The notes under the pieces: model-generated
What the model saw: only the letters and a program-made list of their open reading frames with translations
Database searches by the model: none
Told to the model about the DNA's origin: nothing
IMG/VR virus record: IMGVR_UViG_3300044611_002022
Span: 1-23,497 of that record
DNA: 23,497 nt
DNA from: a virus
Direction: 5' to 3' (one strand)
Shown here: piece after piece, positions 1 through 23,497 of the stretch
Numbering within the stretch: position 1 is the stretch's first letter
Layout of the letters: each line of letters opens with the position of its first letter
Made by a program: the position numbers and the translations under genes

Positions 1-2
1 TA

Positions 3-140: not shown

Positions 141-142
141 TT

Positions 143-1816: not shown

Positions 1817-1827
1817 AATTAAATTAA

Positions 1828-2364
1828 ATGGAAATTGTAAAAATAAAAACTTCAAAAATTGTTTTGAATGATGAAAATCCAAGAACAATAAAAGAATCTA
1901 ATTTTCAAAAATTAATAAATTCAGTTAAAGATTTTCCTGAAATGCTTGAAATTAGGCCAATTGTTGTTGATGAAAATATGGTTGTTTTAGGTGGTAATAT
2001 GAGATTTCGTGCTTGTTTAGAAGCAGGAATGAAAGAAGTATCTGTAATTATTGCCAAAAATTTAACCGAAGAACAAAAAAAAGAATTTATTATTAAAGAC
2101 AATGTTTCAGGTGGAGATTGGGATTGGGATATTTTAGTTAATTCGTGGAATACCGAACAATTAGAAGAATGGGGATTAGAAGTTCCAATTAATTTAACTG
2201 CAGAAGATGCGTTCGACATTGAAGGTAAAGATAAATTTAGCGAAAATGTAAATTTTACTATCAGATGTGATTCGATGGAACAACTTCAAGAACTTCAAAC
2301 AAAGTTAAGCGTTGATGGTCAAAAATTGAATTATCAAGAATTTATTATTAAAGTTGGATTATGA
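1828..2364 (+). CDS. ParB/sulfiredoxin-domain protein
   Basis: A 178-residue protein whose first 100 residues match the ParB N-terminal/sulfiredoxin-like fold: ENPR at 16-19, PIVVDE at 44-49, LGGNMRFRA at 54-62 and AGMKEVSVII at 66-75. The G-G-N-M-R loop corresponds to the conserved nucleotide-binding or catalytic GxxR box. There is no ParB helix-turn-helix, so this is not a partition protein. Phage proteins of this type often sit next to DNA methylases or small terminase genes. The C-terminal half, with WDWD at 98-101 and a later helical part, is of unknown role. Its stop overlaps the next start (ATGA), coupling it to the glycosyltransferase-like gene. Domain firm, function uncertain. Confidence 0.75.
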   Translation: MEIVKIKTSKIVLNDENPRTIKESNFQKLINSVKDFPEMLEIRPIVVDENMVVLGGNMRFRACLEAGMKEVSVIIAKNLTEEQKKEFIIKDNVSGGDWDWDILVNSWNTEQLEEWGLEVPINLTAEDAFDIEGKDKFSENVNFTIRCDSMEQLQELQTKLSVDGQKLNYQEFIIKVGL

Positions 2365-3299
2365 GAGTAGCTATATTAGAGATTTATCCTAATAAAGTGT
2401 TTGATGCAAGTAAAGGTATTGATGCACATTTAAGAAATTCGATAATCATTGGCGATTATTTAGGTGCCGATGTTCTAATTACAGAATCCGATTACCTAAA
2501 GGCATTAAAAAGGAAATATGATGTTCTTATATTGTCTTATGCTTCATTTTACGCCCCATTTCAGCTAATAAACAGATTGGTTGAAAATAACCCTGATGCT
2601 CATCGTGTATTAATATCAAATGAATATGCTCAAAATGGGTTTATTTCAACATTTCCACCCCCTTTCATTTATATAACAAATTTTGAAGGTATAGTTATTG
2701 GTAAAAAGCACGTTAAAGAACACCACGTTTTAAATTTGAATTTATTATTTGCGAGAAAACCTAATAAATTGGCCGATAAGAAGTATGATTGCATTTATTA
2801 TGGAACATTTCGCAAAGACCGAGAAAAATATTTCAAAAAATACCTTCAAAAAGGAATCTATTTATCTACATCAGACAAAAATTTTAAAAAATACAAACAT
2901 ATTGGTTGCAATCCTTTATGGATTAAGAAGTTATCTTGGGCCGATAAAAGAGAAACATTGAACAATTTTAGATTTTCGCTTTATATTGAAGATGAATTTA
3001 CTCATACTTGTTTCAATAATCTCGGTAATAGATGGTATGAAGCAGGATTTTCAAACGTAGTAATGTTTTTTGATAAAAATTGCTACAATACATTAATAAA
3101 ATCAGAAATTGGTATTCATATTGATGAAATTAAACAATTCATAGTAGAAGATTACCAATCATTAAAAGATAAAATTGAACAAATGAAACCCGATTTTGAA
3201 AAATATCTTAAAATTCAGCAAAATTGGAGAACAAATGAACCTCAATTAAGAGAAAAACTATTGAATGATTTAAAAGAAGTCATTTATAAAAAACGCTAA
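2361..3299 (+). CDS. GT-B glycosyltransferase resembling T4 beta-glucosyltransferase
   Basis: A 312-residue protein with a two-domain GT-B look: an N-terminal Rossmann start (MRVAILEIYPN), a central CIYYGTFRKDRE at 144-155 opening the second domain, and NRWYEAGFSNVVMFFD at 223-238. Compared with remembered T4 beta-glucosyltransferase, YGTFR..R aligns with YGGSFR..R (the UDP-phosphate arginines; here Arg151 and Arg154), RWYE with RVWE (ribose-binding Glu; here Glu227), and SNEYAQ at 86-91 with the catalytic-Asp segment (here Asn87/Glu88). The C-terminal helices also align. This suggests a sugar transferred from a nucleotide-sugar donor, perhaps to DNA. A protein or surface-glycan acceptor is equally possible, as a glycosyltransferase cassette lies downstream. 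Coupled by ATGA to the ParB-like gene. Confidence 0.6.
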   Translation: MRVAILEIYPNKVFDASKGIDAHLRNSIIIGDYLGADVLITESDYLKALKRKYDVLILSYASFYAPFQLINRLVENNPDAHRVLISNEYAQNGFISTFPPPFIYITNFEGIVIGKKHVKEHHVLNLNLLFARKPNKLADKKYDCIYYGTFRKDREKYFKKYLQKGIYLSTSDKNFKKYKHIGCNPLWIKKLSWADKRETLNNFRFSLYIEDEFTHTCFNNLGNRWYEAGFSNVVMFFDKNCYNTLIKSEIGIHIDEIKQFIVEDYQSLKDKIEQMKPDFEKYLKIQQNWRTNEPQLREKLLNDLKEVIYKKR

Positions 3300-3301
3300 T
3301 T

Positions 3302-3712
3302 ATGGCATACGATAAAGTAAAAATATACGAACAAGCTAAAGAATTAGTCATTGAAAAAAAGCTTTTTTTTGTCGAAGATGTAATTGCCTTATTACCAATA
3401 AGTAAACAAACATACTACGATTTTTTTAAAGTAAATTCTTACGAATATGACACTATAAAAGATTTGCTTGATAAAAATAAAGTTGAAGTTAAAACTTCTA
3501 TGCGTTCAAAATGGTATAAATCAGAAAATGCTACATTACAATTGGCATTAATGAAATTAATAGGTACCGAAGAAGAAGCACATCGTTTAAATGGAAGTAA
3601 CCATAAAATATCAGGGGACCGAGATAATCCTTTGCAAAATCAAATGACCATAAATGTTGTAAGTACCGGTGTTGCAGTAAAAACCAAAGAATCTGATATT
3701 GATTTAGATTAA
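3302..3712 (+). CDS. Terminase small subunit (TerS-like)
   Basis: A 136-residue protein directly before the large terminase gene (TAATG overlap at 3710-3714). The N-terminal half is helical and DNA-binding-like: VEDVIALLPISKQTYYDFF at 24-42 resembles the HTH of Bacteroidota TerS proteins, followed by a basic region (VKTSMRSKWYKSE) and the helix LQLALMKLIGTEEEAHRLN at 79-97. In the family, TerS forms a ring that recognises viral DNA and stimulates TerL. The C-terminal tail is polar and probably disordered. The assignment rests on position plus pattern; the protein class is divergent. Confidence 0.75.
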   Translation: MAYDKVKIYEQAKELVIEKKLFFVEDVIALLPISKQTYYDFFKVNSYEYDTIKDLLDKNKVEVKTSMRSKWYKSENATLQLALMKLIGTEEEAHRLNGSNHKISGDRDNPLQNQMTINVVSTGVAVKTKESDIDLD

Positions 3713-4842
3713 TGTTCGAAGTAAGCGAATTATTTGAGAAAAATTTTAATTGTCCTACAAAAATTGCCATCAATCAAGGTGGAACGTGGTCGGGAAAAAC
3801 TTATACTATACTTCAGGTCCTAATTACTTATGCTTTATCTGAAACGTGCATAATAACTATAGTCGGCCAAGATATTCCAAATTTAAAATCAGGAGCATTA
3901 AGAGATTTTCAAGATATTATATTCAAAAATCCTTTATTGGATAATAAAATCCTTGAATACAACAAGTCAGATAGGATTTATACGCTTGTAAATGGTTCTA
4001 TAATTGAGTTTAAATCATACGATGATTGGCAAGATGCCAAATCAGGTAAAAGGGATTATTTGTTTTTAAACGAGGCCAATGGTATTAATTATGAAATCGC
4101 TAAACAATTAATTTTAAGAACAGACAAAAAGGTTTTTATTGATTATAACCCCGATTCAGAATTTTGGGTACATTCAACATATCTTAATAGCAAAAAAGCT
4201 TCTTTTTTTTATTCAGACCATCGAATGAATCCTTTTGTTTCAAAAGAAACTCGTGAAGATATAGAAAATTTACGCAATATAGACCTTGAATTATGGAAAA
4301 TTTATGCTCGTGGAATCACAGGTCGAATTGAAGGCTTAATTTATCGCCATTGGAAAATTATTGATGAATTTCCTGAAATTGATTATGTTTATGGACTTGA
4401 TTTTGGTTATAATCATCCAACTGCTTTGATAAAATGTGGATGGGATGATGATAATTACTTTATTAAAGAAGAAATTTATGAATCAGGATTAACCACGCCA
4501 CAATTAATAGACAAAATGAAACAATTAGATATAGGTCAAACAGAAATTTTCGCTGATTCGGCTCGACCCGATACGATAGAAGAACTATATCAAGCAGGTT
4601 TTAACGTAAAATCATCTGACAAATCAGTAAAAGATGGAATAAATTGCGTAAAATCTAAACCATTAAATGTTTTCAATTCGCCAAACATTGTAAAAGAACT
4701 AAAAATGTACAAATGGAAAACCGATAAAAATAATAAACCTGTGGATGAACCTGTAAAATTCAATGATGATGGAATGGATGCGATGCGATATGGATTATAT
4801 AATGGAACTAAATTATTAGGAAGGAAGGCATCGTGGTTTTAA
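3712..4842 (+). CDS. Terminase large subunit (TerL)
   Basis: A 376-residue DNA-packaging motor, ATPase plus nuclease. The Walker A motif is GGTWSGKT at 23-30. The Walker B strand is YLFLNE at 116-121, with Asn120 in place of the usual Asp before the catalytic Glu121, a variation I recall as common in Bacteroidota phages. DYNP at 144-147 fits the coupling segment. The RNase H-like nuclease domain starts at about 225 with GLDFGYNHP (Asp230) and continues with IFADSARPD (Asp282) and DDGMDAMRYG (Asp356), the expected three acidic ligands. It is somewhat shorter than many TerL proteins but no motif is missing. It docks on the portal, whose gene in this window lies about 18 kb downstream. Confidence 0.93.
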   Translation: MFEVSELFEKNFNCPTKIAINQGGTWSGKTYTILQVLITYALSETCIITIVGQDIPNLKSGALRDFQDIIFKNPLLDNKILEYNKSDRIYTLVNGSIIEFKSYDDWQDAKSGKRDYLFLNEANGINYEIAKQLILRTDKKVFIDYNPDSEFWVHSTYLNSKKASFFYSDHRMNPFVSKETREDIENLRNIDLELWKIYARGITGRIEGLIYRHWKIIDEFPEIDYVYGLDFGYNHPTALIKCGWDDDNYFIKEEIYESGLTTPQLIDKMKQLDIGQTEIFADSARPDTIEELYQAGFNVKSSDKSVKDGINCVKSKPLNVFNSPNIVKELKMYKWKTDKNNKPVDEPVKFNDDGMDAMRYGLYNGTKLLGRKASWF

Positions 4843-5564
4843 TTAACGTGGATAAACAATATGAGATGCCAACTCAATTGAATGAAATTTCCTTAAAATT
4901 ATTTATCAAACTTCAAGATTTGCTATCAGAAGAAAATTATGATGAAGCAATTATGCTCGTTTCGGGTATTTCAAGCGATATTTATGAATATATTTCAAAT
5001 GAAGGTAAATTAAAATTGGCAGAATTAGTTAAATTGTTATTAAATGGCGAACCTGTTTTTGGCGATGAATTGCAACTTTATGAATTATTGGAATGTCCAA
5101 TTGGTCAATTTGAAGATTGGAAAGCTACTATTTCTGAATTTAAAGAAAAAACGTGGCACGCTTTACCTTGTTTGACTTTGCTTGAAAAATGTGATTACAA
5201 TTATAACACTCAAATAAATAAACGATATTTAGAATATTTAGAAATGCCATCATCAATTGCACTTTTCCACCAAAAAAAGGTTAATGAGCAATTTGAAGAT
5301 TTGAAGAATAAATTTTTACCTTTGTTTGAAGATGAACTTGAAGATATACAATTAGAAGCAGGTGTTATGTCATTAAATCAATTTGGTGGATATGGCACAT
5401 TGGTTCAATTAGCTAATAACATTTATAAAGATATTGATGTTGTTAGTAAAACAAGTGTAGCAGAAGCTTATACGTTTTTAACTTATAAAAAAATTGAACG
5501 GACATATTTGCATAATTTAGAAAAATTGAAACGTGAAGAAATTAATAGAAATATTCAAAGCTAA
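4833..5564 (+). CDS. Putative tail assembly chaperone-like protein
   Basis: A 243-residue acidic, mainly helical protein of no certain family. The N-terminal part (EMPTQLNEISLKLFIKL) and the C-terminal pattern (GTLVQLANNIYKDIDVV, then AYTFLTYKKIERTYLHNLEKL) resemble helical tail-assembly chaperones of Bacteroidota siphophages. The first start in frame is GTG at 4833, overlapping the TerL stop by 10 bp; a GTG at 4848 or the ATG at 4866 are alternatives, the latter leaving a 23-nt gap. It overlaps the next gene by 32 bp. Tail chaperones usually sit just before the tape measure gene, which here lies 8 kb away, so the position is atypical. The role is uncertain. Confidence 0.45.
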   Translation: MVLINVDKQYEMPTQLNEISLKLFIKLQDLLSEENYDEAIMLVSGISSDIYEYISNEGKLKLAELVKLLLNGEPVFGDELQLYELLECPIGQFEDWKATISEFKEKTWHALPCLTLLEKCDYNYNTQINKRYLEYLEMPSSIALFHQKKVNEQFEDLKNKFLPLFEDELEDIQLEAGVMSLNQFGGYGTLVQLANNIYKDIDVVSKTSVAEAYTFLTYKKIERTYLHNLEKLKREEINRNIQS

Positions 5565-12441: not shown

Positions 12442-12472
12442 TTTGTAAATAATTAAAAATAAAGTATCTTTG
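12442..12472 (+). promoter_or_regulatory. Bacteroidota-type promoter for the 54-codon gene
   Basis: TTTG at 12442-12445 and TATCTTTG at 12465-12472 match the Bacteroidota consensus TTTG-(about 19)-TAnnTTTG with a spacer of exactly 19 nt. The ATG of the small gene begins 3 nt after the box, so transcription would start at or next to the start codon. Confidence 0.75.
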
Positions 12473-12475
12473 ATT

Positions 12476-12640
12476 ATGACCAACGAACAAATATTTGCTA
12501 TTATTAGTCAAGGATTAAATAAAGCAAACAAATCAGGAGTTTTTGATTTAAAAGAATCGGCATCAGTTGTTTCAGCATTATCTGAACTTCAAAAAGTTTT
12601 AGATTCTTTATCTCCTAAAGAGGAAATGAAAAAAGTATAA
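12476..12640 (+). CDS. Small conserved-looking protein (54 aa) upstream of the tape measure gene
   Basis: A 54-codon gene. The protein is helical: NEQIFAIISQGLNKANKSG at 3-21, then VFDLKESASVVSALSELQKVL, resembling a short protein I recall from Flavobacterium-type phages. No membrane segment or catalytic motif is seen. It has its own promoter immediately upstream (no untranslated leader expected) and a strong terminator starting 4 nt after its stop, so it forms a single-gene transcript. Role unknown; a small tail-assembly or regulatory factor is a guess based on the neighbouring tape measure gene. Confidence 0.7.
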   Translation: MTNEQIFAIISQGLNKANKSGVFDLKESASVVSALSELQKVLDSLSPKEEMKKV

Positions 12641-12643
12641 TTG

Positions 12644-12673
12644 AATAAGGCCTGTAAAATGGCCTTATTTTTT
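12644..12673 (+). terminator. Rho-independent terminator before the tape measure gene
   Basis: AATAAGGCC at 12644-12652 pairs perfectly with GGCCTTATT at 12661-12669 around an 8-nt loop, and is followed by a T run to 12673. The 9-bp stem contains GGCC. It ends the 54-codon transcript 13 nt before the tape measure ATG at 12686, and no promoter fits in between, so tape measure expression probably relies on read-through. Confidence 0.8.
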
Positions 12674-12685
12674 AAATTTAAAACG

Positions 12686-15085
12686 ATGGCAGATAGCAAA
12701 ACGATTATTTATAGTGTTGATATTGAATATGGGAATCTTGTAAAGAACTCCGAGGATATTAAAACAAAAATAAAGGATTTAACAATTGCTCAAACAAATT
12801 TAGATACAAGCAGTAAAGAAAATCAGAAAACTTATCGTGAAAATACTACTCAATTAAAAATGCTTCAAAGTCAATTGAAGTTAAATGAAACAGAAGTAAA
12901 TAAATTCACAGAATCAGAAAAAGCAAATACAGATGCTACAAATTTCAACAATAATTCAATAAAACAAAACAGAGAATTATTAAAAGGATTAACTGCAGAA
13001 TATATTAAACTTCAAAATCCCACTGAAGAACAAACCAAAAAAATAAAAGCGTTAAGTGATACTTTAAAAGCACAAGAAGGTGCCATTGGCGATACTCGTA
13101 GAAGTGTAGGTAATTATAAAGAATCTTTTCAATCAGCTATTGGACAATTTCCTGCATTTCAAAAAGGAATTGAAGGAGTTTCTAATGGTTTCAAAGCATT
13201 ATCTGCAGGAAATCCATTTACGCTTATATTGATGGCATTAACACCATTGATACAATCATTTTTAAAATTAGAACCTGTAACAAATGCAATAAATGGAGTT
13301 TTTGAAGGATTAACTTCAGCAATTACCACTATTGTTTCATCAATAAAAAACTTTTTTGATTTAATGTCATCAGGTGCAGGATTTTTTGATTCAATTTCTC
13401 AAGCATTTGGTGGATTGGGTGGAAAAATGAAATCGGCAGCGATTGAAGGATATAATTTAGTTCAAGCATTAGATGATTTAGAAGATGCTGAAAGGTCAAA
13501 TCAAGCTTCTATGGCTAAAACTAATAGAGATGTGGCAATTCTCATTGCTCAATCTAAAGATAGGACTAAAACAGAACGAGAACGTATTGATTTATTAAAG
13601 GAAGCGAACCGATTAGAAGAAGAACAACTTAAAAAAGATTTAAATATAGCAAATACAAGAGTGGCCGTTACTGCTCACGCTTTAGCAGTTGCAATTCGTA
13701 CAGGAAAAGACCGAGATACTGCAGAGCAAAATTTAGCAGATGCTCAACAAAAACGATTTGAAGCAGAACAGGCTTCAGGAGTTCAAACAGAAAAAAATCA
13801 AGGCAGAATTAATGGTTTAATTCAATCAGAAGATGATTTGCGACAAAAAGGACTTGATAAACAAAAGAAAAGAATTGAAGAAAATAAGAAAATTTTAGAT
13901 GATTTTGTTAAAAAAGTTACTGAATCATTAAATGAAGAACAAAAAATAAGAGTAGAACAATTTGCAAATGATAAATTACTTACTCAAATGGCCAATGATG
14001 AAAAATTATTGTCTTTAAAAGAATCATTTGCAAATGGAACACTTACAGAAAAACAATACCAAGACCAAATTAAAGAACAACAATTAGCATTTTATGATGC
14101 ACAAATAGCCGACCTTGAAGAATATAATGGTATTACAGGTGCATACGATGATGAAATCACTAAATTAAAAATTGATAAACAAAATGCAGTTACTGATAAT
14201 AAAATAGTAAATATTGAAAAACAGAAAGAATTAGATGCTCAAAAATTTGAATTAGATTTAGAATATGCTACAATAACTGCACAAACAGACCAAGAAAAAA
14301 GGGACCAAGAAATTTTAAATATAGAAGCTCAAAATGCTCAAATATTAAAAAACACTAAATTAACTGAAGAACAAAAGCGAAATGAGATAGCAAAAAATGC
14401 TAAAGCAATTGAAGAAATTGAAAAGGCATCTACTAAAGCAAGAATTGCTAATATTATGCAATTAGCAAATGTAATGGGCCAAATATCAGAATTATTAGGA
14501 AAAAATACTGAAGAAGGAAAAGCTTTTGCAGTTGCTCAAACTATTATTAGCACATACGCTTCTGCACAACAAGCCTATGCATCTCAAATAATTCCCGGCG
14601 ACCCAACTTCTCCTGTTCGTGGTGCTATTTTAGCAGGATTAGCTATTATTCAAGGATTAAAAAGAGTGAGAGAAATAACTGCAATTGAAGTTCCAAAACC
14701 AACACCTCCACCTCCACAAAAAACTGAAGGATTTGCCGAAGGTGGATTAGTAGGATTTGCAAGTGGTGGATTATCAGGAACTAAAATTACTTCAGGAATG
14801 GGAATACCAATAAGAAGGAGAAATGGAGATAATTTATTAGCAACCGTAAAAACAGGAGAAGTTATTTTAAATCAAAAACAACAAGCGATGCTTGGTGGTT
14901 CAAGTACTTTTTCTCGAATTGGTGTTCCGGGATTCGCTAATGGTGGAATGATTCTTCCTGATATAACAAGTCCTAATTTTGATTTAATGGAATCATTTAG
15001 AAATATGCAATTAGTAGTGAGTGCAGTTGAAATCACAAATGTACAGAACAGATTAAAGGTAATGGAAGATACTACATCATTATGA
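12686..15085 (+). CDS. Tail tape measure protein
   Basis: A 799-residue protein that sets tail length. From the N-terminus: a coiled-coil region (about 20-135), the motif RRSVGNYKESF at 138-148 typical of Bacteroidota tape measures, hydrophobic segments at about 176-245 (NPFTLILMALTPLI, then SAITTIVSSI), a long charged coiled coil (about 260-600) and a Gly-rich C-terminal part with FAEGGLVGFASGG at 683-695 and LATVKTGEVILN. The start is ATG 12686: an in-frame TTG at 12641 and ATG at 12659 lie within the terminator hairpin and add unlikely residues. It overlaps the next gene by 4 bp (ATGA). The protein has no visible lytic domain. Its low copy number per virion fits limited read-through. Confidence 0.9.
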   Translation: MADSKTIIYSVDIEYGNLVKNSEDIKTKIKDLTIAQTNLDTSSKENQKTYRENTTQLKMLQSQLKLNETEVNKFTESEKANTDATNFNNNSIKQNRELLKGLTAEYIKLQNPTEEQTKKIKALSDTLKAQEGAIGDTRRSVGNYKESFQSAIGQFPAFQKGIEGVSNGFKALSAGNPFTLILMALTPLIQSFLKLEPVTNAINGVFEGLTSAITTIVSSIKNFFDLMSSGAGFFDSISQAFGGLGGKMKSAAIEGYNLVQALDDLEDAERSNQASMAKTNRDVAILIAQSKDRTKTERERIDLLKEANRLEEEQLKKDLNIANTRVAVTAHALAVAIRTGKDRDTAEQNLADAQQKRFEAEQASGVQTEKNQGRINGLIQSEDDLRQKGLDKQKKRIEENKKILDDFVKKVTESLNEEQKIRVEQFANDKLLTQMANDEKLLSLKESFANGTLTEKQYQDQIKEQQLAFYDAQIADLEEYNGITGAYDDEITKLKIDKQNAVTDNKIVNIEKQKELDAQKFELDLEYATITAQTDQEKRDQEILNIEAQNAQILKNTKLTEEQKRNEIAKNAKAIEEIEKASTKARIANIMQLANVMGQISELLGKNTEEGKAFAVAQTIISTYASAQQAYASQIIPGDPTSPVRGAILAGLAIIQGLKRVREITAIEVPKPTPPPPQKTEGFAEGGLVGFASGGLSGTKITSGMGIPIRRRNGDNLLATVKTGEVILNQKQQAMLGGSSTFSRIGVPGFANGGMILPDITSPNFDLMESFRNMQLVVSAVEITNVQNRLKVMEDTTSL

Positions 15086-15327
15086 ACATAGAAAAAGAAT
15101 TTTACGAACGCATTAATAATAAATTTGGCGAATGTTCCAAATTGGCTTATTATTTAGCAGAAAAATGTGCATTGACTACATCTGATTTAGAAAGATTCTT
15201 AATAAGAAGTGAAGTTGAAGAACAAATTGAAAAAGGAAAAAAATCAAAAATGATGATTTATGCAGATATTGCTGAAAAATATTGTAAATCAATACATTCG
15301 GTAATATATATTGTAAAAAAAATCTAA
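15082..15327 (+). CDS. Small HTH-like protein, possible regulator
   Basis: An 81-residue basic protein translationally coupled to the tape measure gene (ATGA). It is helical; the last part, YADIAEKYCKSIHSVIYIVKK at 60-80, has the spacing of a helix-turn-helix of the type in small terminase or sigma-like proteins (I-A..Y..S...V..I). The stop is directly followed by the inverted repeat and promoter at 15328-15373. A DNA-binding regulator of that site is therefore plausible but is inference; a minor tail role is the alternative. Confidence 0.5.
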   Translation: MNIEKEFYERINNKFGECSKLAYYLAEKCALTTSDLERFLIRSEVEEQIEKGKKSKMMIYADIAEKYCKSIHSVIYIVKKI

Positions 15328-15373
15328 TTGTAAAATGATTACAAAAATTAAATTTTAATTATAATTAAATTTG
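15328..15373 (+). promoter_or_regulatory. Inverted-repeat promoter of the protease-capsid operon
   Basis: A 17-bp inverted repeat TTGTAA-AATGA-TTACAA at 15328-15344 is followed after exactly 21 nt by TAAATTTG at 15366-15373, a -7 box of the Bacteroidota type. There is no TTTG at the usual -33 place. The ATG of the protease gene begins 4 nt after the box. The same arrangement, with identical spacing, precedes the portal gene, which suggests that a protein binding the repeat replaces the -33 contact. Confidence 0.7.
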
Positions 15374-15377
15374 TTAT

Positions 15378-16463
15378 ATGGAAATCTATAATTTATTAAT
15401 AAATAAAGACATTGGTATAGATAAAGGAGATTTATCTTCTGAATATGTGCGTAATGAAATCCTAAAAGCACAAAATCAAGGTGCCAAAGAAATTCGTTTA
15501 ATTATCAATTCAAAAGGAGGAGATGTTTACGAAGGTTTTTCTATTTACAATGATTTAAAAGATTGTGGCTTAAAAATTACTGCTTACATTCACGGATTTT
15601 GTGGTTCAATTTCAACATTAATAGCATCAAGTGCTGAATATGTAGAAATGAGTGAAACTGCTCAATATATGATACACAATTCTTCAGGTGGTGCATCAGG
15701 AAATGCTAAAGACCTTGAAGCAACTGCAGTAGCTTTAAGACAAATTGATGAAATTTTAGCAACAAATTATTCTAAAAAAACAGGAAAAACTATTGATGAA
15801 TTAAAAGCATTAATGGAAACAACTACATATATGAGTCCAAATGATGCAAAAAATTTAGGATTTATTGATGCAGTAAGATTACCAATATCAGCTTTCGGAA
15901 AATTTAATATAAAAACAAAAATGGACAATAATTTTAAAAACAAAATCGCTTCTGCTTTCAAGGCAATTGAAGAAGCATTAACAGGAAAAAATGAAAATCC
16001 TGTAAATTTTACTGAACCATTGGCCGATGGAAAAACTATCATATATGGCGATGGAGATTTAATGGTTGGTTCTGCAGTTTATACTGATGAATCAATGACT
16101 ACACCTGCACCTGAAGGGGAACACGCTTTATTAAGTGGTGTTTTTATCATTGTTGATGAAGCAGGAATTGTTCTTGAAATTCGTGAAATCGAAGATAAAG
16201 GAGAAGATGTAGTTGCAAAAGAAAATGCTGATTTAAAAGCAAAAGTTGCTGATTTAGAAGCAAAATTAGTTGCTGAAACAACTGAAAAAGAAGTATCTGC
16301 AAAAAATTTAGTAGAATTTAAAGCAAAAATGGATTCTGATTTTAAAAATTTGAAATCATTAATAACTTCTGCTGATGTAAAACAAAAAGATGACCAACGT
16401 AAAAATGTTGCTCCAAATCCTTTTGATGTAGTAGCTGAAAAAATGAAAAAACAATATTTGTAA
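15378..16463 (+). CDS. ClpP-like head maturation protease fused to scaffold
   Basis: A 361-residue fusion. Residues 1-180 form a ClpP-type serine peptidase: INSKGGDVYEG at 43-53, GFCGSIS at 73-79 (nucleophile Ser77) and YMIHN at 97-101 (His100). The third triad member is expected before YMSPNDA at 151-157 but Thr149 stands where Asp is usual, so it may use another residue. Residues about 210-265 form a small beta domain (GKTIIYGDGDLMVG), and about 275-335 a charged coiled coil, the likely scaffolding part. In the family this enzyme cleaves scaffold and capsid during head assembly. It starts an operon with MCP 21 nt downstream. It is leaderless if the promoter call is right. Confidence 0.85.
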   Translation: MEIYNLLINKDIGIDKGDLSSEYVRNEILKAQNQGAKEIRLIINSKGGDVYEGFSIYNDLKDCGLKITAYIHGFCGSISTLIASSAEYVEMSETAQYMIHNSSGGASGNAKDLEATAVALRQIDEILATNYSKKTGKTIDELKALMETTTYMSPNDAKNLGFIDAVRLPISAFGKFNIKTKMDNNFKNKIASAFKAIEEALTGKNENPVNFTEPLADGKTIIYGDGDLMVGSAVYTDESMTTPAPEGEHALLSGVFIIVDEAGIVLEIREIEDKGEDVVAKENADLKAKVADLEAKLVAETTEKEVSAKNLVEFKAKMDSDFKNLKSLITSADVKQKDDQRKNVAPNPFDVVAEKMKKQYL

Positions 16464-16484
16464 ACAATTAAAAAATAAAAAAAA

Positions 16485-17459
16485 ATGGATATTTTAGATA
16501 TAAACTTTGAATGGCCGGGGCAATTAGCCAATGAGGTATTTATTAAACCTACATTTTTAACTCCTGAAATGACTTCAGAATTTAGAGTTATAGTAGATAT
16601 TAAATCAAGAAGACAATTAGCATTAGACAATATTCTTTCAGGTGTGGTTCGCCCATCAGTTGGTTGTGGTCGTGATAATGCAGGAAATGTTATTGATATT
16701 TCAGACAAATGGATTGATGTTTGCGATTTAAAAATAAATTTAAATCAATGTGCTAAAAATTTACGTGCTACATTTATGGAGCAGTATTTGAGAACAGGTA
16801 ATGAAATTACTGATTTAGTGGGTACAAATGTTCAATCTTACATTTTAGAAAAAGTTACAAATGCAGTTCGTTTAGATGTTTATGATATCGCTTGGTTTGG
16901 AGATGAAAATTCTGCAAATGATACATTAGCATCTTGTACAGGAATGTGGGCGAGATTAATTCAAGGAGCAAATGCTTACGAAATTGAAAAAGTAACTATT
17001 CCTTCTACTTTAGGAGATTGTACTGCACTTAATGTTTTAAGAGATATGTACACTACTGCATCGCCATTATTGGACCAAATGCCTGAAGGAGATAAATATT
17101 TTGCTTTAACTCGTGAATTATACGACAATTATTTAACTTGTAGAGAAGAAGCTTGTGGTGGAGATAAAGCTTGGGATATGGTTGAAGCAGGTGCAAGAGT
17201 TTTAACTTTCAGAGGTATTCCTGTTTATAAAAAATCAAGATGGACTCAAATCATTTCAGCAAATGAATTGGGAAATACTCATCGTGCAGTTTATACATAC
17301 AAAGAAAATCTTGCAGTTGGTACAGATGCAGTATCTGATATGAATTCACTTGATTTTTACTATGTAAAACAAGACAAGATGAATTACATTGATGCAGAAT
17401 TTAAAATGGGTACTCAATATATCTATGGCGAATTGACTGTAATTGGTTTATCTTACTAA
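16485..17459 (+). CDS. Major capsid protein (HK97 fold)
   Basis: A 324-residue protein directly after the protease-scaffold gene, the standard place for the major head protein. It opens with FEWPGQLANEVFIKP at 8-22 and has the P-domain pattern of Bacteroidota capsid proteins, ending in AEFKMGTQYIYGELTVIGLSY. It is rich in Cys (VGCG, DVCD, NQCA, SCTG, DCTA, CREEAC), more than most HK97-fold proteins and perhaps used for metal or disulfide stabilisation. The leader 16464-16484 is nearly all A, which is known to favour initiation in Bacteroidota where Shine-Dalgarno sites are not used. It is followed, 20 nt later, by the tail protein gene with a strong SD site. Confidence 0.88.
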   Translation: MDILDINFEWPGQLANEVFIKPTFLTPEMTSEFRVIVDIKSRRQLALDNILSGVVRPSVGCGRDNAGNVIDISDKWIDVCDLKINLNQCAKNLRATFMEQYLRTGNEITDLVGTNVQSYILEKVTNAVRLDVYDIAWFGDENSANDTLASCTGMWARLIQGANAYEIEKVTIPSTLGDCTALNVLRDMYTTASPLLDQMPEGDKYFALTRELYDNYLTCREEACGGDKAWDMVEAGARVLTFRGIPVYKKSRWTQIISANELGNTHRAVYTYKENLAVGTDAVSDMNSLDFYYVKQDKMNYIDAEFKMGTQYIYGELTVIGLSY

Positions 17460-17462
17460 TTT

Positions 17463-17470
17463 AAAGGAGG
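17463..17470 (+). promoter_or_regulatory. Perfect Shine-Dalgarno site of the major tail protein gene
   Basis: AAAGGAGG lies 9 nt before the ATG at 17480 in a purine-only leader. No other gene in the window has such a site. In Bacteroidota ribosomes the anti-SD is normally sequestered (bS21, bS18, bS6), so an SD this strong is unusual and may be a control element. Confidence 0.8.
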
Positions 17471-17479
17471 AAAAAAAAT

Positions 17480-18046
17480 ATGCCTTGTGGAATTATAAGT
17501 GGATTAGCTTGTGCAACTTGTGAAGATTTACAGGTTGTCGGTGGAATTAAAGCGAAAAATATCTATGTAGGTTCATTATCAGATTTAACTGATAGTGGAT
17601 TTACTGCAGATTCTGAAGGTGTTGTTACTGCTATTGGATTGCAACCTTATAACTATCTTTTCAAATTTTGTGCTAAAACAAAAAGTGCAGGAGCAGGACA
17701 AGAAATGGTTATTGGAGAAAACAATATCAAATCTTTTAATCAAACGATTACAGGAAAATTTCAGCAACAAACACAAGACGCTAAAAACGTTTGGGATAAT
17801 TTGAAGTTATTAGATGATTTATTTGTCATCATTGAAAAAACTGATGGTACATTTGAACTTTATGGTAAAGTGGCAGGATTACAAATTACTGCTTTAACTA
17901 AAGCTACAGGAGTATTAATCGGAGATGATAATGCTTTCAACGTAACATTAGGACAACCAAATGGTGGAGAAACATCATTGGCTCCTGATTTCTTAAAAAC
18001 AGATTACCAAACTACTAAAAATTATCTTGAAGGATTAATTTCATAG
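17480..18046 (+). CDS. Major tail protein (tail tube subunit)
   Basis: A 188-residue protein with the N-terminus MPCGIISGLACATCEDL followed by GGIKAKNIYVGSLSDL, the pattern of the Bacteroidota siphophage tail-tube protein (Cys-rich start, then GGIK and a strand). The C-terminal half, DGTFELYGKVAGLQI near 122-136 and FNVTLGQPNGGET near 153-165, fits the tube beta-sandwich. It is third in the head operon, 20 nt after the capsid gene, and has the only strong Shine-Dalgarno site of the window. It ends in TAG, the only TAG stop seen here, 19 nt before a strong terminator. The tail-tube subunit must be made in large amounts, which fits the SD. Confidence 0.78.
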   Translation: MPCGIISGLACATCEDLQVVGGIKAKNIYVGSLSDLTDSGFTADSEGVVTAIGLQPYNYLFKFCAKTKSAGAGQEMVIGENNIKSFNQTITGKFQQQTQDAKNVWDNLKLLDDLFVIIEKTDGTFELYGKVAGLQITALTKATGVLIGDDNAFNVTLGQPNGGETSLAPDFLKTDYQTTKNYLEGLIS

Positions 18047-18065
18047 TTCAAGTTGGGTTAATAGG

Positions 18066-18100
18066 AATGGTGTCGGGGTAACTTGACACCATTTTTTTTT
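18066..18100 (+). terminator. Strong Rho-independent terminator after the head operon
   Basis: AATGGTGTC at 18066-18074 pairs perfectly with GACACCATT at 18085-18093 around a 10-nt loop, followed by a run of T to 18100. Seven nucleotides of the loop and 3' arm (AACTTGA, 18080-18086) are also complementary to TCAAGTT at 18048-18054, so an alternative, antiterminator-like fold is possible. Confidence 0.88.
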
Positions 18101-18126
18101 GTATTTGTAATTTTTTACTATATTTG
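18098..18126 (+). promoter_or_regulatory. Bacteroidota-type promoter of the glycosyltransferase cassette
   Basis: TTTG at 18098-18101 and TATATTTG at 18119-18126 are separated by 17 nt, within the range described for Flavobacterium promoters. The upstream box uses the last T residues of the preceding terminator, and the ATG at 18130 begins 3 nt after the -7 box. Confidence 0.7.
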
Positions 18127-18129
18127 AAT

Positions 18130-18306
18130 ATGTCAATCGAAGAAATAAAACAATATTTTGACCAAAATGGTGGTAAAAGTTTACCTCATAATGATAAACA
18201 TTGGAATATTTTGTTTGATATGTATTTTAAAGCAACTAAAAACAAACTTTCTATAGGTTGTGGAGGTTGTTATCAAGTTGGATATAAATGGCTACAAAAA
18301 CAATAA
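18130..18306 (+). CDS. Small CxxC protein (58 aa) at the head of the cassette
   Basis: A 58-residue protein starting with MSIEEIKQYFDQNGGKSLP and ending with IGCGGCYQVGYKWLQKQ; the CGGC pair could bind a metal or form a disulfide. Start: an in-frame TTG at 18124 is part of the promoter box, so ATG 18130 is chosen. It overlaps the following gene by 19 bp. Function unknown. As first gene behind the promoter it would be made in the largest amounts in the cassette. Confidence 0.6.
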   Translation: MSIEEIKQYFDQNGGKSLPHNDKHWNILFDMYFKATKNKLSIGCGGCYQVGYKWLQKQ

Positions 18307-18977
18307 TTCATCAAATTTATTTTAACGAACAAACAAAGGGATTTATTAATCCTATTTGTATTCCTTATGATAATATTTGGTTTGAAGGTAAAAAAACTCA
18401 ACCTTGTTTTGAAAATCATATAATTTCAGAACTTATTGATAAACAGGCACATAAAGAATCTGATTATTTTGGTGTTTTTTCTTGGCAATTTGAATCTAAA
18501 AATCCATATCGTTTAGAAAATTTTAATGATGATATGAAAAGATTTCCAAAATACGATTGTTATACTTTTTATAAATTACACACTCAACCTAATGTTTGGC
18601 GAGTTGCTGAAAATTGGCATAAAGGTATAATTGAAACTGCTCAACACATTTTTAATCGTTTTAAACCATCAATAAATATTAGTCGAATAAATACACCAAC
18701 AATATACCAAAATGCTCATATAACGAAGATAAACATCTATGAGGATTATGTAAATACTTGGTTAAATCCATTAATTGAAATAATGGAAGATAAAAATGAT
18801 ATTTGGTTACAAAATAGATTATATCAAGATACAAAATATAAATCAGGCCGTTTTTCGCCTGAAATATTAGAAAAATTAACAGGAGTTCCATATTATCCAA
18901 TGCACACTTTTATTTGTGAAAGGTTTTTTTCTACTTATATGGCAATTAATAGACATTCAATCAAACATTTATGCTAA
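18288..18977 (+). CDS. Putative glycosyltransferase-related protein
   Basis: A 229-residue protein of no certain family. The N-terminal IIHQIYFNEQTKGFI, then ENHIISELI and DYFGVFSWQFESK at 59-71, and the C-terminal PYYPMHTFICERFFSTYM are arranged like some GT-A-type sugar-transfer proteins in glycan clusters, in which a ...H-x-F-x-x-E-R-F... segment closes the domain. No clear DxD motif is visible. Support comes mainly from its place among glycosyltransferase genes. It overlaps the next gene by 7 bp. An accessory or acceptor-recognition role is also possible. Confidence 0.45.
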   Translation: MATKTIIHQIYFNEQTKGFINPICIPYDNIWFEGKKTQPCFENHIISELIDKQAHKESDYFGVFSWQFESKNPYRLENFNDDMKRFPKYDCYTFYKLHTQPNVWRVAENWHKGIIETAQHIFNRFKPSINISRINTPTIYQNAHITKINIYEDYVNTWLNPLIEIMEDKNDIWLQNRLYQDTKYKSGRFSPEILEKLTGVPYYPMHTFICERFFSTYMAINRHSIKHLC

Positions 18978-19756
18978 AAATAAGAGTAGTAAGCAATTAT
19001 GCTGAAAGTTGGAGATTACATTCTGAAATATTAAGACAATTTGCACCTGCAAACATTGTTTTAAATTTTGGATTTGTTGAAGATAATTCTTATAATATTT
19101 TATTTATTTTAAATAATTGGGATGGCGAAATAAAAGTAAAACCTGAATATGTTTTTGTTTTAGCACAAGAACCTTCTTGGTCTTTAAATTTTAAAGATTG
19201 GAATGATAAATGTGCTGAATTTATTTCTCCTACTAATAACCAATTGCCATTAATGTTTAATTGGACCGGCCTTGATTTTGAAGAAGCAATTAATTTAAAA
19301 ATTGAAAAAACCAAAAAATGTAGTTTTATTGTTGCAAAACACAAACCATTAGAAGGAACTTTATACGATTTTAGAAATAAATTAGTTGATTTAATAATTG
19401 CAAGTGATTTAGACATAGATATTTATGGTAAAGGATGGAATATTTCTGATTCAAGATATAAAGGAGAAATTGAACATAAAAAAGATGGTTTAATAGATTA
19501 TCATTCATCAATTTGTATAGAAAATTGTGAGCAAGAATTTTATGTAACTGAAAAATTTTGGGATGCTATTATATGTGATACATTTCCAATACCATATCAA
19601 GCGATTAAAAATGAACCAATAAAAGCAATTAAAGCAATTATGGAATCTGTAGCGATTGGCGATGGTTATGCTTATACAATGCCTCATAAACAATACTATT
19701 TCCACGAATTAAACATATTTAGATATATTCAATCAAAAGTTAATCTATTTATCTGA
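18971..19756 (+). CDS. GT10 fucosyltransferase-like protein
   Basis: A 261-residue protein whose C-terminal half has the GT10 (alpha-1,3/1,4-fucosyltransferase) signature: SICIENC at 180-186, YVTEKFWDAI at 191-200 and TFPIPYQA at 204-211, corresponding to the family FENS...YVTEK...vPvy segment that holds GDP-fucose. VLAQEPSW at 63-70 fits the N-terminal domain. The enzyme would add fucose, or a related sugar from a GDP donor, to a glycan in the cytoplasm. It overlaps its neighbours on both sides (7 bp and TGATG), so it is within the cassette operon. The C-terminal end is short compared with typical members. Donor and acceptor are unknown. Confidence 0.65.
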   Translation: MLKIRVVSNYAESWRLHSEILRQFAPANIVLNFGFVEDNSYNILFILNNWDGEIKVKPEYVFVLAQEPSWSLNFKDWNDKCAEFISPTNNQLPLMFNWTGLDFEEAINLKIEKTKKCSFIVAKHKPLEGTLYDFRNKLVDLIIASDLDIDIYGKGWNISDSRYKGEIEHKKDGLIDYHSSICIENCEQEFYVTEKFWDAIICDTFPIPYQAIKNEPIKAIKAIMESVAIGDGYAYTMPHKQYYFHELNIFRYIQSKVNLFI

Positions 19757-20412
19757 TGCCAATTTGTATAACATTCGGAACAAAGCAATACCAAAATGCA
19801 CTTGATAGGTTGTTTAAATCTGCCAATAAGTATATGTACACTTTGACTTTTAATGTTTCATCAATTACAGAATTAATAAAAGCATATCCGAAGCATTTTC
19901 AATCTGATAGGGGATTTGGTTGGTGGTTATGGAAACCATATTTAATTAATTCGGTTTTAAATTCAATGCAAGAAGGAGATTATTTGATTTATTTAGATTC
20001 AACAATTGAAATTTTAAAAAATCCTGAAATATTATTAGAAGATTATAAATCAGATATAATTTTGTTTAATAATGGTCAAATACACCAAGAATATTGTAAA
20101 ACAGAATGTTATTATGAAATGGGTTATAATTCGCCATTAAATCAATTACAAGCAAATGGTGCTATTCAAATTTATAGGAAATCTGATTTTTCATTAATGT
20201 TTACTGAAGAATATTTCCTTTGGTGTACAAAATTAGATTTAATTAATGATGAACACGATAAAACAATTCAGAATAATAAATTTAAAACACATAGGCACGA
20301 CCAATCAATTTTAACTAATTTGGCAGTTGGTTATGAAATACCTTTATTTACATCTCCTTGCCAATGGGGTATGAAAGAAAATGCTTATTTTAACCATCAC
20401 AGACAACTATGA
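19756..20412 (+). CDS. GT-A-type glycosyltransferase-like protein
   Basis: A 218-residue protein beginning MPICITFGTKQYQNAL. The segment GFGWWLWKP at 53-61 followed by GDYLIYLDS at 74-82 is the pattern of a GT-A-like family seen in polysaccharide gene clusters, where the LDS/LDT acidic residue is the metal ligand. Later parts (QANGAIQIYRKSDFS, HRHDQSILTNL) also fit the acceptor side, ending in HRQL. It is coupled to both neighbours by TGATG/ATGA overlaps. Substrate unknown. Confidence 0.6.
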   Translation: MPICITFGTKQYQNALDRLFKSANKYMYTLTFNVSSITELIKAYPKHFQSDRGFGWWLWKPYLINSVLNSMQEGDYLIYLDSTIEILKNPEILLEDYKSDIILFNNGQIHQEYCKTECYYEMGYNSPLNQLQANGAIQIYRKSDFSLMFTEEYFLWCTKLDLINDEHDKTIQNNKFKTHRHDQSILTNLAVGYEIPLFTSPCQWGMKENAYFNHHRQL

Positions 20413-20585
20413 TAATTAAAGGGATATTAAAAAAAGATAAAAATGGATTTTATTTAGAAACTAAATATAAATTCAATGGTAAAATGGGATTAAATGATGA
20501 ACAAATAGAAATACTTGATACATTAGTAAATAAAAAAATAAAAATTGAATATGAAACAATTAACAGAATTGGCAATCGCAAATAA
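20409..20585 (+). CDS. Small unknown protein (58 aa) in the cassette
   Basis: A 58-residue lysine-rich protein starting with an ATGA overlap and ending 35 nt into the next gene (ATG 20551). It has no motif I recognise (MIIKGILKKDKNGFYLETKY at the start). It is listed because the overlap type and codon use match the other genes. It could be a translation-coupling leader for the methyltransferase or a small partner protein. Confidence 0.5.
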   Translation: MIIKGILKKDKNGFYLETKYKFNGKMGLNDEQIEILDTLVNKKIKIEYETINRIGNRK

Positions 20586-21090
20586 GGCTCAACAGAAACC
20601 TTATGAATTTCAAAAATTGCTTGAAATGTTAGATGTAATGACATCTAAAAAAATTGCAGTCGAAATAGGAAGTTATGATGGTGGATGCTTATATGCATAT
20701 CGTGAAATGTTCGGCAAAACGATTTCTATTGACCTAAATCAACGTTCAAACATTGAAGGTATAGATTATATCATTGGAGATAGTAAAACGTTGTATAACG
20801 ATTTAAAATCGAAATTAGGAGGTAAAAATACCAAAATAGATTTTTTAATGATTGACGGAGACCATTCTTTTGAAGGCGTAAAGTCTGATTTTGAAATTTA
20901 CCATAAATTGGTTAAAAAAGGTGGTATTATAGCTTTTCACGATGTTAAAGAAACTCAAATGCATACCGAACTTAATTGTTTTGTATCTGATTTTTGGAAT
21001 AAAATTAGATTGGATGAAAGATTTGAAGCAATTGAATTTTTAGATTCAGTAAATGATTGGGGTGGAATTGGTGTTTTAATCATAAAATAA
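20551..21090 (+). CDS. Class I SAM-dependent methyltransferase
   Basis: A 179-residue protein with the class I fold: VEIGSYDGG at 37-45 (SAM glycine loop), SIDL at 59-62 (Asp61 for the ribose), IDGDHSFEGV at 101-110 and GGIIAFHD at 124-131. The IDGDHS...GG-x-I-x-x-H-D pattern is that of the Methyltransf_24 / cephalosporin-hydroxylase-like group, common in sugar and glycan clusters, where it O-methylates a sugar. DNA methylation is not suggested: there is no DPPY or NPPY motif. The start is ATG 20551, since a TTG six nt upstream is not needed. Overlaps with neighbours place it in the operon. Confidence 0.72.
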   Translation: MKQLTELAIANKAQQKPYEFQKLLEMLDVMTSKKIAVEIGSYDGGCLYAYREMFGKTISIDLNQRSNIEGIDYIIGDSKTLYNDLKSKLGGKNTKIDFLMIDGDHSFEGVKSDFEIYHKLVKKGGIIAFHDVKETQMHTELNCFVSDFWNKIRLDERFEAIEFLDSVNDWGGIGVLIIK

Positions 21091-21707
21091 TGGATATTAT
21101 CATCACTTGTAAAAATAGACTTCAGCATTTAAAAAAATGTATTTCATCAATTCCTAAAGAAAATTTAATTGATGTTTTTGTTGTTTGCTATGGAGATGAA
21201 ATGGCATTTAGATGGTGTAAACAAGAAAAATTGAAGTGTATTTTATATCCGGCCCGAGATTTTCATTTATCAAAAGCGAGAAATATTGGTGTTACTAATA
21301 CTTTTGATGAATGGTTATTTTTTGCTGATGCTGATACAATATTTGATGCTAATTTTTTCAAATCATTAAAATTAGAAACAAATAATTATTATACAGGAGA
21401 ACCACAATGTTCAGGTAATTGTATTGTTGAAAGAAAACATTTTAAAGGTTATGATGAAGCGATAAAAGGATATGGTGGCGAAGATACAGACCTTTATATT
21501 ACATTGACTATACAAGGTTTAAAGAAATGCCACATTGAATTAATGAGATATTTACCTCATTCTGATTTTGATAGGACAAGAAACTACGGAAATTCGAAGA
21601 AATGGCATCAACAATTGCATAATATTAAGTATTTGATGCAAAAACATCCTCACGAGTTCATTTTTCCTGAATATATTTCACCCGATTTAAAACATTTTTT
21701 TTTATGA
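21090..21707 (+). CDS. GT2/GT27-like glycosyltransferase
   Basis: A 205-residue GT-A enzyme. MDIIITCKNRLQHL at 1-14 starts the Rossmann core, KARNIG at 62-67 binds the donor, FADAD at 78-82 is the metal-binding DxD (Asp80, Asp82) and GYGGEDTDL at 127-135 is the C-terminal motif typical of GalNAc/galactosyl-transferase-like proteins. The start is ATG 21090 (TAATG overlap with the methyltransferase stop), not the in-frame TTG at 21057. It would transfer a sugar to a glycan or protein acceptor. It overlaps the membrane protein gene by 4 bp. Confidence 0.78.
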   Translation: MDIIITCKNRLQHLKKCISSIPKENLIDVFVVCYGDEMAFRWCKQEKLKCILYPARDFHLSKARNIGVTNTFDEWLFFADADTIFDANFFKSLKLETNNYYTGEPQCSGNCIVERKHFKGYDEAIKGYGGEDTDLYITLTIQGLKKCHIELMRYLPHSDFDRTRNYGNSKKWHQQLHNIKYLMQKHPHEFIFPEYISPDLKHFFL

Positions 21708-21982
21708 TGATTCAAGAATCTTTTCTCATATCGTTATTGTGTTATGGTTTTTTTCAAGCAACACGATTCGGAAATATTTTGTATTTCATTCAACGATTTT
21801 CGCTTACATTACCCGAATTTTTCGGTAAACCAATATGCCTTTGTTTAACTTGTATGTCATCAATTCACACTATTTTTTGGCATTATTGTTTTTGGGGATT
21901 TGAATGGACAATAATACCTCAAATTTTAATTGTAGCATCAATAAATCATATAATAGGATTAATTTCAGCACAATATGAATAA
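21704..21982 (+). CDS. Small membrane protein with CxxC motif
   Basis: A 92-residue hydrophobic protein with two or three likely membrane helices: FLISLLCYGFF near 7-17, HTIFWHYCFWGF near 55-66 and IIPQILIVASINHIIGLI near 70-87. CLTC lies at 46-50 in the loop between the helices. It is the only clear membrane protein of the cassette and could anchor or localise the glycosyltransferases, or help export a glycan intermediate. It overlaps both neighbours (ATGA before, 8 bp after). No family recognised. Confidence 0.6.
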   Translation: MMIQESFLISLLCYGFFQATRFGNILYFIQRFSLTLPEFFGKPICLCLTCMSSIHTIFWHYCFWGFEWTIIPQILIVASINHIIGLISAQYE

Positions 21983-22700
21983 ATTAGCAGGAATTTGGAA
22001 CGTTTGGGATGGCGATGAACATTTAAGAAAGTCAATTGAACAAATTAAAGAACATTTAGACTTTGTAATTGTTGTTTATCAGAACATTTCAAATACAGGA
22101 GAAAAATATTTTCCTGAATTACCACACGATTTAATAGATATGTCGTTTCATTATCAACCAAATTTATTGGATTCTGCTCAAAATAATGAAGAAAACAAAC
22201 GTAATATAGGCCTATCATTAGCAAAACAAATTAAATGCACTCATTTTATTCATCTTGATTGCGATGAAATGTATTTTAATGAAGATTTTAAACGTGCTAA
22301 AGAAGAATGTTATAAAAACAATTTGGATGCTTCATTTTGCTCATTAAAAACCTATTATAAATATCCTACAAAGCAATTATTTCCTGAAGAACCTTATTTT
22401 GTGCCATTTATTCATAAAATATATCCACAGACTAAAATGTGCTTTGATAAAAAATATCCTGCATTTGTGGACCCAACACGAAGAACAAATACTTATATCA
22501 ATCATAAATACATAGATTGGTTAAAAATGCACCATTATTCTTTTGTAAGAAAAGATATTGAAAGGAAAATGAGAAATTCTTCAAGTTCATCAGCATTTTC
22601 TAATAATAGTGTAACTTGGGAAGAATTTGATAAAACAGGTAAGATGATACATTTTAAGGATTTTATTACCATTGATGTTGAAAATTACTTCAATTTGTAA
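21975..22700 (+). CDS. Glycosyltransferase, GT2-like
   Basis: A 241-residue GT-A protein. LAGIWNVWDGDEHLRKSI at 4-21 and FVIVVYQNIS at 30-39 form the first strands, KRNIGLSLAK at 75-84 is a donor-binding helix and HLDCDEMY at 93-100 is the metal-binding DxD-type motif (Asp95, Asp97). The rest (HHYSFVRKDIERKM) resembles acceptor-site helices of sugar transferases that act on long glycans. It is the last cassette gene; its Leu-TAA end forms the left arm of the inverted repeat before the portal gene. Sugar and acceptor unknown. Confidence 0.7.
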   Translation: MNKLAGIWNVWDGDEHLRKSIEQIKEHLDFVIVVYQNISNTGEKYFPELPHDLIDMSFHYQPNLLDSAQNNEENKRNIGLSLAKQIKCTHFIHLDCDEMYFNEDFKRAKEECYKNNLDASFCSLKTYYKYPTKQLFPEEPYFVPFIHKIYPQTKMCFDKKYPAFVDPTRRTNTYINHKYIDWLKMHHYSFVRKDIERKMRNSSSSSAFSNNSVTWEEFDKTGKMIHFKDFITIDVENYFNL

Positions 22701-22740
22701 ATAAATTACAAGTTAAAAGTCTTATAATAAAGTAAATTTG
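22695..22740 (+). promoter_or_regulatory. Inverted-repeat promoter of the portal gene
   Basis: TTGTAA-ATAAA-TTACAA at 22695-22711, then 21 nt, then TAAATTTG at 22733-22740 and ATG at 22746. Repeat arms, 5-nt loop, 21-nt spacing and -7 box are identical to the protease promoter at 15328-15373; only spacer bases differ. The left arm overlaps the stop codon of the upstream gene. Confidence 0.7.
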
Positions 22741-22745
22741 TATAT

Positions 22746-23497
22746 ATGGAAATGACTCAATTATCCGATAATTTTTTCTTTTTTCAGGCAAAAGCACCTG
22801 CTGATTTAACTATTTTTAATCAAATAGATGATTTTCAAAGAAAAATTATTAGTTATGGTAAATTCAATAATTATCCACAAGAGATAATAAAGGCCATACA
22901 ATCATCGCCAATCGCTAATTCTTGCGTTGAAACCCACGCTAAATTCCTTTATGGAGATGGATTATATTTTGATACTCCTGAAGGACAAACTGAAGAATTT
23001 ACAAATAAATTAAAACAAATATTTAATGAGTCATTTTATCAGACTATATGTTATGATATGGCATATTTTGAAGCACTTGGTTTAATTCAAAAATGGGATT
23101 TAAATGGTTATTTAACAAGTGTTAAGCAACAAGATTTTTCTACAATTCGTTTAGGTATTCCAAATCTTGATGATTTTGAAATTACTTATGCTATGATTTC
23201 AAGCAATTGGCAAGAAGAACAAAAATTAAAACGTTATAGAGCAATAAAAATAGATTTATACAACGATATTGATACTAAAGTTAAAATTGGTTCATATAAT
23301 GAAGGAAATAAAGTAGATGAATTTCAAAAATGGTCGGGAACATTAGAATATATTAGAAGATATAAACCGGGCCAAGTATATTATTCTCAACCAAAATTTG
23401 CTTCAGCCTTAAAATGGATTTATGCCGATGGACAAATTCAAAATTTTCACGCAAATAATGTAGATAATTCTTTTGCTCCTGCATTTATAGTAAAAGT
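22746..23497 (+). CDS. Portal protein, N-terminal part (cut by the window end)
   Basis: At least 250 residues from ATG 22746, open at the window edge. KIISYGKFNNYPQEII and SSPIANSCVETHAKFLYGDGLYFD near 55-78 are the pattern of Bacteroidota phage portals (YG...N.YP..., then a nearly invariant S-P-x-x-x-x-C/S). It continues with a wing-like domain and, at the edge, ALKWIYADGQIQNFHANNV. In the virion a 12-mer of this protein forms the DNA entry pore that docks terminase and, later, the neck. It has its own promoter, so it is not made with the capsid operon as usual. Confidence 0.82.
   Translation, partial: MEMTQLSDNFFFFQAKAPADLTIFNQIDDFQRKIISYGKFNNYPQEIIKAIQSSPIANSCVETHAKFLYGDGLYFDTPEGQTEEFTNKLKQIFNESFYQTICYDMAYFEALGLIQKWDLNGYLTSVKQQDFSTIRLGIPNLDDFEITYAMISSNWQEEQKLKRYRAIKIDLYNDIDTKVKIGSYNEGNKVDEFQKWSGTLEYIRRYKPGQVYYSQPKFASALKWIYADGQIQNFHANNVDNSFAPAFIVK

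Follow-up and report, generated by a model that had tools for sequence, protein, structure and literature searches.

Predicted leaderless late promoters in a phage of Bacteroidota and their conservation among its relatives

The viral record IMGVR_UViG_3300044611_002022 was analyzed over positions 1–23,497 (the window; all coordinates of open reading frames (ORFs) and motifs are window positions), and the subject of this report is four copies of the -7 promoter box TAnnTTTG that end 3–5 nucleotides (nt) before an ATG. We consider it likely that these boxes are host sigma-A promoters yielding leaderless late mRNAs and that two of them, those of the head maturation protease and the portal protein, probably depend on a regulator. 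The -7 elements, recognized by the host sigma-A (sigma-ABfr), would set the start of transcription at the AUG or within about 2 nt of it; four predicted late units, namely a gene of 54 amino acids (aa), the head protease–capsid operon, the block headed by the gene at 18130 and the portal operon, would then begin as leaderless mRNAs, the 5' AUG of which the ribosomes would recognize.

Results

A preliminary description of this DNA had placed the four boxes 3, 4, 3 and 5 nt before an ATG, with only A and T in between, and its coordinates proved exact: TATCTTTG-ATT-ATG at 12465–12472 (promoter 1, 3 nt before the ATG at 12476), TAAATTTG-TTAT-ATG at 15366–15373 (promoter 2, 4 nt before 15378), TATATTTG-AAT-ATG at 18119–18126 (promoter 3, 3 nt before 18130) and TAAATTTG-TATAT-ATG at 22733–22740 (promoter 4, 5 nt before 22746). 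All of them lie on the plus strand, as do the other window features given below, apart from the palindromes, which carry no strand. The two variable positions read TC, AA, TA and AA at promoters 1–4, and all fit the G-free form TAHHTTTG. A TTTG of the -33 type is located 19 nt upstream of the box at promoter 1 (12442–12445) and a TTTG 17 nt upstream at promoter 3 (18098–18101); promoters 2 and 4 have none in the range of 17–23 nt upstream of the box, and the -33 element is weak in Flavobacterium johnsoniae as well (PMC6847099). The A/T-only spacer was rejected as a feature in its own right, relatives having TTAAC, CCTT, GACAC or GGC in this position. Contig L067 (18,746 nt) overlaps both ends of the window (1–5347 and 20721–23497) at 99.96% identity, which identifies the record as part of a genome that is either circular or circularly permuted; joined together, the two give a closed circle of 34,119 nt. 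All 80 cellular relatives of the terminase among the matches listed belong to Bacteroidota, and the closest named cultured phages by this protein infect Flavobacterium.

As a motif, TAnnTTTG is not enriched (46 copies on both strands of the window versus 47.9 +/- 6.9 in shuffled sequences), so what departs from chance is the position of the boxes. The window has five gaps of 30 nt or more between genes. Four of them end in a box at 3–5 nt, and the fifth (12641–12686) holds a hairpin and no such box; in the closed circle, the same four sites are the only plus-strand copies of TAnnTTTG within gaps of at least 25 nt. When 11 gaps were resampled with their own dinucleotide composition in 20,000 trials, the mean number of boxes at 3–5 nt was 0.034 and the maximum 2, compared with 4 observed. 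The comparison of TAnnTTTG-N3-5-ATG with random expectation, which the preliminary description had put forward as a check, thus came out in its favor, and the related genomes considered next are enriched at the same distances. Sigma-70 type promoters were uninformative (90 found versus 90 expected), and a degenerate box, TAAATTTA, before 12686 was dropped as it is not retained in most relatives.

A scan with the capsid gene yielded 40 related loci, and box-to-start distances were counted in 65 related records (980 kb), using 29 permuted motifs as the null. TAnnTTTG stands 3, 4 and 5 nt before ORF starts 8, 46 and 40 times, respectively, versus about 1–2 per position for the permuted motifs, counts that weigh less in favor of leaderless starts than their size suggests, given that they stem from about five orthologous loci sampled repeatedly and not from 94 independent promoters. 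Taken locus by locus, the box lies 4 nt (8) or 5 nt (5) from the start in protease orthologues (13 distinct upstream sequences, with proteins as low as ~59% identical), 5 nt (6) or 7 nt (4) in portal orthologues (10 distinct upstreams), 4 nt (6) or 3 nt (1) in orthologues of gene 12476, where it is lost once (8 distinct upstreams), and 4 nt (10) or 3 nt (1) in those of gene 18130, where one subclade has no box (7; 18 distinct upstreams). The box is accordingly retained at orthologous starts while the spacer and flanks vary in sequence and the spacer slightly in length. In three of the relatives inspected, a fifth box stands at a leaderless distance (3 nt), upstream of a 48-aa gene for which the window phage has no obvious equivalent. 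Conservation of the orthologous proteins extends to the very first residue, which indicates that the ATGs used here are real start codons, and no conserved second box was found upstream in the relatives.

The box of F. johnsoniae lies at -12 to -5, and promoters in which 4 or 5 nt separate the box from the start are deemed probable (PMC6847099). At that flavobacterial distance, transcripts would begin no more than 2 nt from the AUG, which makes leaderless late mRNAs the best reading of the sequence; with a 4-nt spacing, the predicted +1, counted from the A of the ATG, has an offset of +1 at promoter 1, 0 at promoter 2, +1 at promoter 3 and -1 at promoter 4. The published spacing and the conserved box–ATG distance both bear out, as a prediction, the earlier claim that transcription begins at or near the ATG. 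About a dozen Mucilaginibacter loci (L160, L163, L193 and others) carry, near a terminase-like gene, a TACATTTG-type box 3 nt before a gene for a helix-turn-helix (HTH) domain protein, antitoxin-like by appearance; this gene adjoins an inverted repeat and looks like an autoregulated leaderless gene. The recurrence of the 3-nt spacing there suggests that 3 nt is usable.

Dozens of related viruses keep the box next to the ATG, an arrangement that is rare among the other viruses of Bacteroidota. In seven cultured phages of this phylum (FCL-2, 11b, phi10:1, B124-14, FpV9, BV283P3 and the first 50 kb of BS-TP3), 46 boxes lie no more than 60 nt from a start. Only three of these boxes are at 3–7 nt, and one of the three (11b, 4918) falls inside an annotated gene, as compared with four out of four in the window phage (Fisher p = 1.5e-4). 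Outgroup phages with 47% terminase identity are mostly leadered (14–43 nt). On both counts a rule for the phages of the whole phylum was rejected. Bacteroidota prophage and host DNA (1.5 Mb) contains 22 boxes at 3–5 nt versus 1.9 expected, and the near-ATG share there, 13% of the boxes within 60 nt, is in line with the small leaderless class that measurements in hosts have shown. Two separate classes, leadered and near-ATG, are seen among the boxes of other phages and prophages of Bacteroidota.

A palindrome, TTGTAA-N5-TTACAA, is common to the protease and portal promoters. It reads TTGTAA-AATGA-TTACAA at 15328–15344 and TTGTAA-ATAAA-TTACAA at 22695–22711, each copy being centered exactly 30 bp upstream of the start of the box and proposed as an activator or operator site. 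These are the only two copies in the 34-kb genome (0.04 expected), both 30 bp before a box. The center stays 29–30 bp before the box in relatives, and in the portal subclade with the box 7 nt from the ATG the palindrome keeps its distance to the box and not to the ATG. It is absent from 1.82 Mb of other Bacteroidota DNA searched. When viral contigs were scanned for the palindrome together with a box that has an ATG at 2–8 nt, 38 stretches emerged, nearly all from the family of the window phage; outside the family, G024, a distant phage of 42% GC, has the palindrome 28 bp before a box that is 4 nt from the ATG, and G025 is a second, weaker match. The same scan at the leadered distance of 9–38 nt gave five stretches, none with a convincing ORF start. 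Relative to the predicted start of transcription, the center of the palindrome falls at approximately -41.5.

Leadered promoters occur in relatives as well: a 405-aa gene has a TAATTTGC promoter 20–30 nt upstream of it, and early-type genes have TATATTTG promoters at 38–39 nt. The early genes of the window phage have A-rich leaders behind hairpins, and a search for boxes in the early gaps gave only candidates with one mismatch, the best being CATATTTG, 41 nt before an ATG. A hairpin, GGGGATTGAAAAATCCCC, is repeated between small early genes (L067 6450–6470 and 6668–6690). AACGCT or AACGTT stands directly before the ATG at six sites of the early block (L067 6489, 6702, 6971, 8394, 9834 and 11817), and 11 of the 27 copies in the genome are no more than 12 nt away from an ATG, making it a possible element of start context.

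Promoter 1 precedes a 54-aa gene (12476–12640, predicted leaderless) that has no Pfam or PHROG match. Directly after it, just before a tape-measure-like gene, comes a terminator-like hairpin with a T run, GAATAAGGCC-TGTAAAAT-GGCCTTATTT (12643–12673), so that gene 12476 is probably its own transcription unit; relatives have a GC-rich hairpin (GGCGGTC...GGCCGCC) in the same place, unlike that of the window in sequence. The protease operon opens with the ClpP-type head maturation protease (15378–16463; PF00574, E=3.6e-29; also a PHROG head maturation protease), predicted leaderless, and continues with a putative major capsid protein (16485–17459), the sole cultured-phage match of which falls in a gene carrying the annotation XkdG / major capsid-like and relatives of which did not emerge when cellular genomes were scanned with its alignment, and with a 188-aa gene (17480–18046). 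A second terminator-like hairpin with a T run (18063–18100) lies directly upstream of promoter 3, behind which a 58-aa gene (18130–18306, predicted leaderless) heads the 18130–22700 block. Terminator-like sites number five, versus 4.2 in shuffled sequences, and hence represent a consensus match only. Such a T run meets or just precedes a TAnnTTTG box at 12618 and 21103 of phage 11b (L142) and at 18063–18126 of the window, linking a terminator-like hairpin to the promoter that follows. The portal gene is present in its 5' part (22746–23497; PF04860, E=2e-10; PHROG portal, 6.8e-33), is predicted leaderless, and is complete in L067 (471 aa).

The preliminary description had also held that the ribosomes of this phylum ignore Shine-Dalgarno sites. 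This agrees with the class-level rule given in PMC9976891, and a Shine-Dalgarno-like site is present in just 3 of 56 called genes; the statement may not hold without qualification, however, as one such site, GGAGG at 17466–17470, lies 9 nt before the ATG at 17480, and GGAG is kept at a spacing of 8–10 nt before the orthologues of that gene in 12 of 12 distinct upstream sequences from 38 loci (L004–L041). Leaderless mRNAs are just 4–13% of Bacteroidota host mRNAs, depending on the definition used (PMC7366714, PMC9723704, PMC6847099), and thus blindness to Shine-Dalgarno sites does not by itself imply leaderless starts.

Discussion

Several observations weigh against the interpretation of the four boxes as leaderless promoters, or limit its reach. 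At both 3-nt sites (12476 and 18130), transcription with the canonical 4-nt spacing would begin with the U of the AUG, so a functional leaderless mRNA there would need a box-to-start spacing of 3 nt, and relatives have 4 nt at both of these loci. One subclade lacks box 3 and has its portal box 7 nt from the ATG, which indicates that a precise spacing is dispensable. Three of the four units also lack a terminator directly in front of them, and a leadered read-through mRNA could therefore serve them too. As a general rule, leaderless initiation also finds no support in the early block, which is devoid of TAnnTTTG. What had been described as a rule for this phage thus stands for the four late promoters, which are conserved in the family, but not for all promoters of the family, some of which are leadered in relatives, and as a rule for Bacteroidota phages leaderless starts are not upheld.

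Among the alternatives, genome compaction is the one that survives best, and we regard it as quite conceivable. According to this explanation, promoters were squeezed into minimal gaps, the leaderless starts are a by-product without regulatory meaning, and leadered read-through transcripts are also translated. Three of the four gaps are indeed 34–50 nt, approximately the length of a promoter, and most other genes overlap or abut. Gap 3, however, is 83 nt long and its box is still 3 nt from the ATG, early gaps of 45–271 nt have no box at all, and other compact Bacteroidota phages retain leaders of 14–40 nt.

A second question concerns the palindrome. Class II activator-dependent promoters have a site centered near -41.5, and the protease and portal promoters resemble them in having a palindrome at that position and a poor -33 element, but differ in that the polymerase is that of Bacteroidota and the activator is only putative. 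A regulator binding there would switch on both promoters together. Symmetric sites of this type often bind repressors, and no HTH regulator was identified among the scanned proteins, so that a repressor operator, or the site of a host regulator, is a genuine possibility even if we lean toward activation. The latter fits better because the center is fixed 29–30 bp from the box and both promoters lack a -33 TTTG. The broadest version of the activation model, in which a phage or host regulator at the palindrome activates the head and portal operons of this phage family with mRNAs that start at 5'-AUG, and late translation bypasses leader-dependent initiation with earlier genes being leadered, is tentative and, taken as a whole, rather unlikely.

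A further alternative, in which the boxes do act as promoters but transcription gives mRNAs with a short leader or begins at another site, such as a non-canonical start point or a promoter overlooked upstream, is improbable. The canonical spacing would drop the A of the AUG at two sites, and the missing -33 element of promoters 2 and 4 points the same way; yet the conserved box–ATG distance leaves no space for a leader, and both the absence of a conserved upstream box and the conservation of the N-termini from these ATGs run counter to a start elsewhere. Chance, the notion that a genome with 72% A+T should yield boxes near ATGs anyway, accounts for the overall motif count but can be set aside in view of the position test and the conservation at orthologous starts.

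A phage parallel in promoter placement is lambda cI, a repressor with a leaderless mRNA whose promoter is placed such that the mRNA starts at the AUG, although that is one regulatory gene, compared with predicted late head and portal genes here. Leaderless sigma-A promoters of F. johnsoniae (PMC6847099), Flavobacterium psychrophilum (PMC9723704) and Bacteroides thetaiotaomicron (PMC7366714) are alike in the -7 box and the implied start spacing. In these hosts, however, they form a minor class (5.5% of mapped mRNAs; 3.7% with leaders <10 nt; 13% with leaders <=10 nt; PMC6847099, PMC9723704, PMC7366714), whereas in the window phage all four TAnnTTTG promoters, belonging to late structural units, are predicted to be of this kind. 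The nearest precedent is the Thermus phage phiYS40, the middle and late transcripts of which are leaderless, while here the structural-stage genes are predicted to be so from sequence alone; phiYS40 is reported to alter host IF2/IF3, and its host, promoter type and the phage itself are unrelated to the window phage (reviewed in PMC3594737). A 2011 survey of leaderless genes found almost none in Bacteroidetes, but only Pribnow-type boxes were sought, and it could therefore have missed a TAnnTTTG class, a limit that the survey acknowledges (PMC3160421). Our literature search found no report of leaderless promoters in Bacteroidota phages.

A phage family in which all clear late promoters are leaderless would be a natural test of leaderless initiation on Bacteroidota ribosomes; for genetic work in this phylum, it would also be a source of very short promoter parts (box plus 4 nt). 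The palindrome common to two of these promoters, in turn, points to a putative regulator of the phage head and portal genes.

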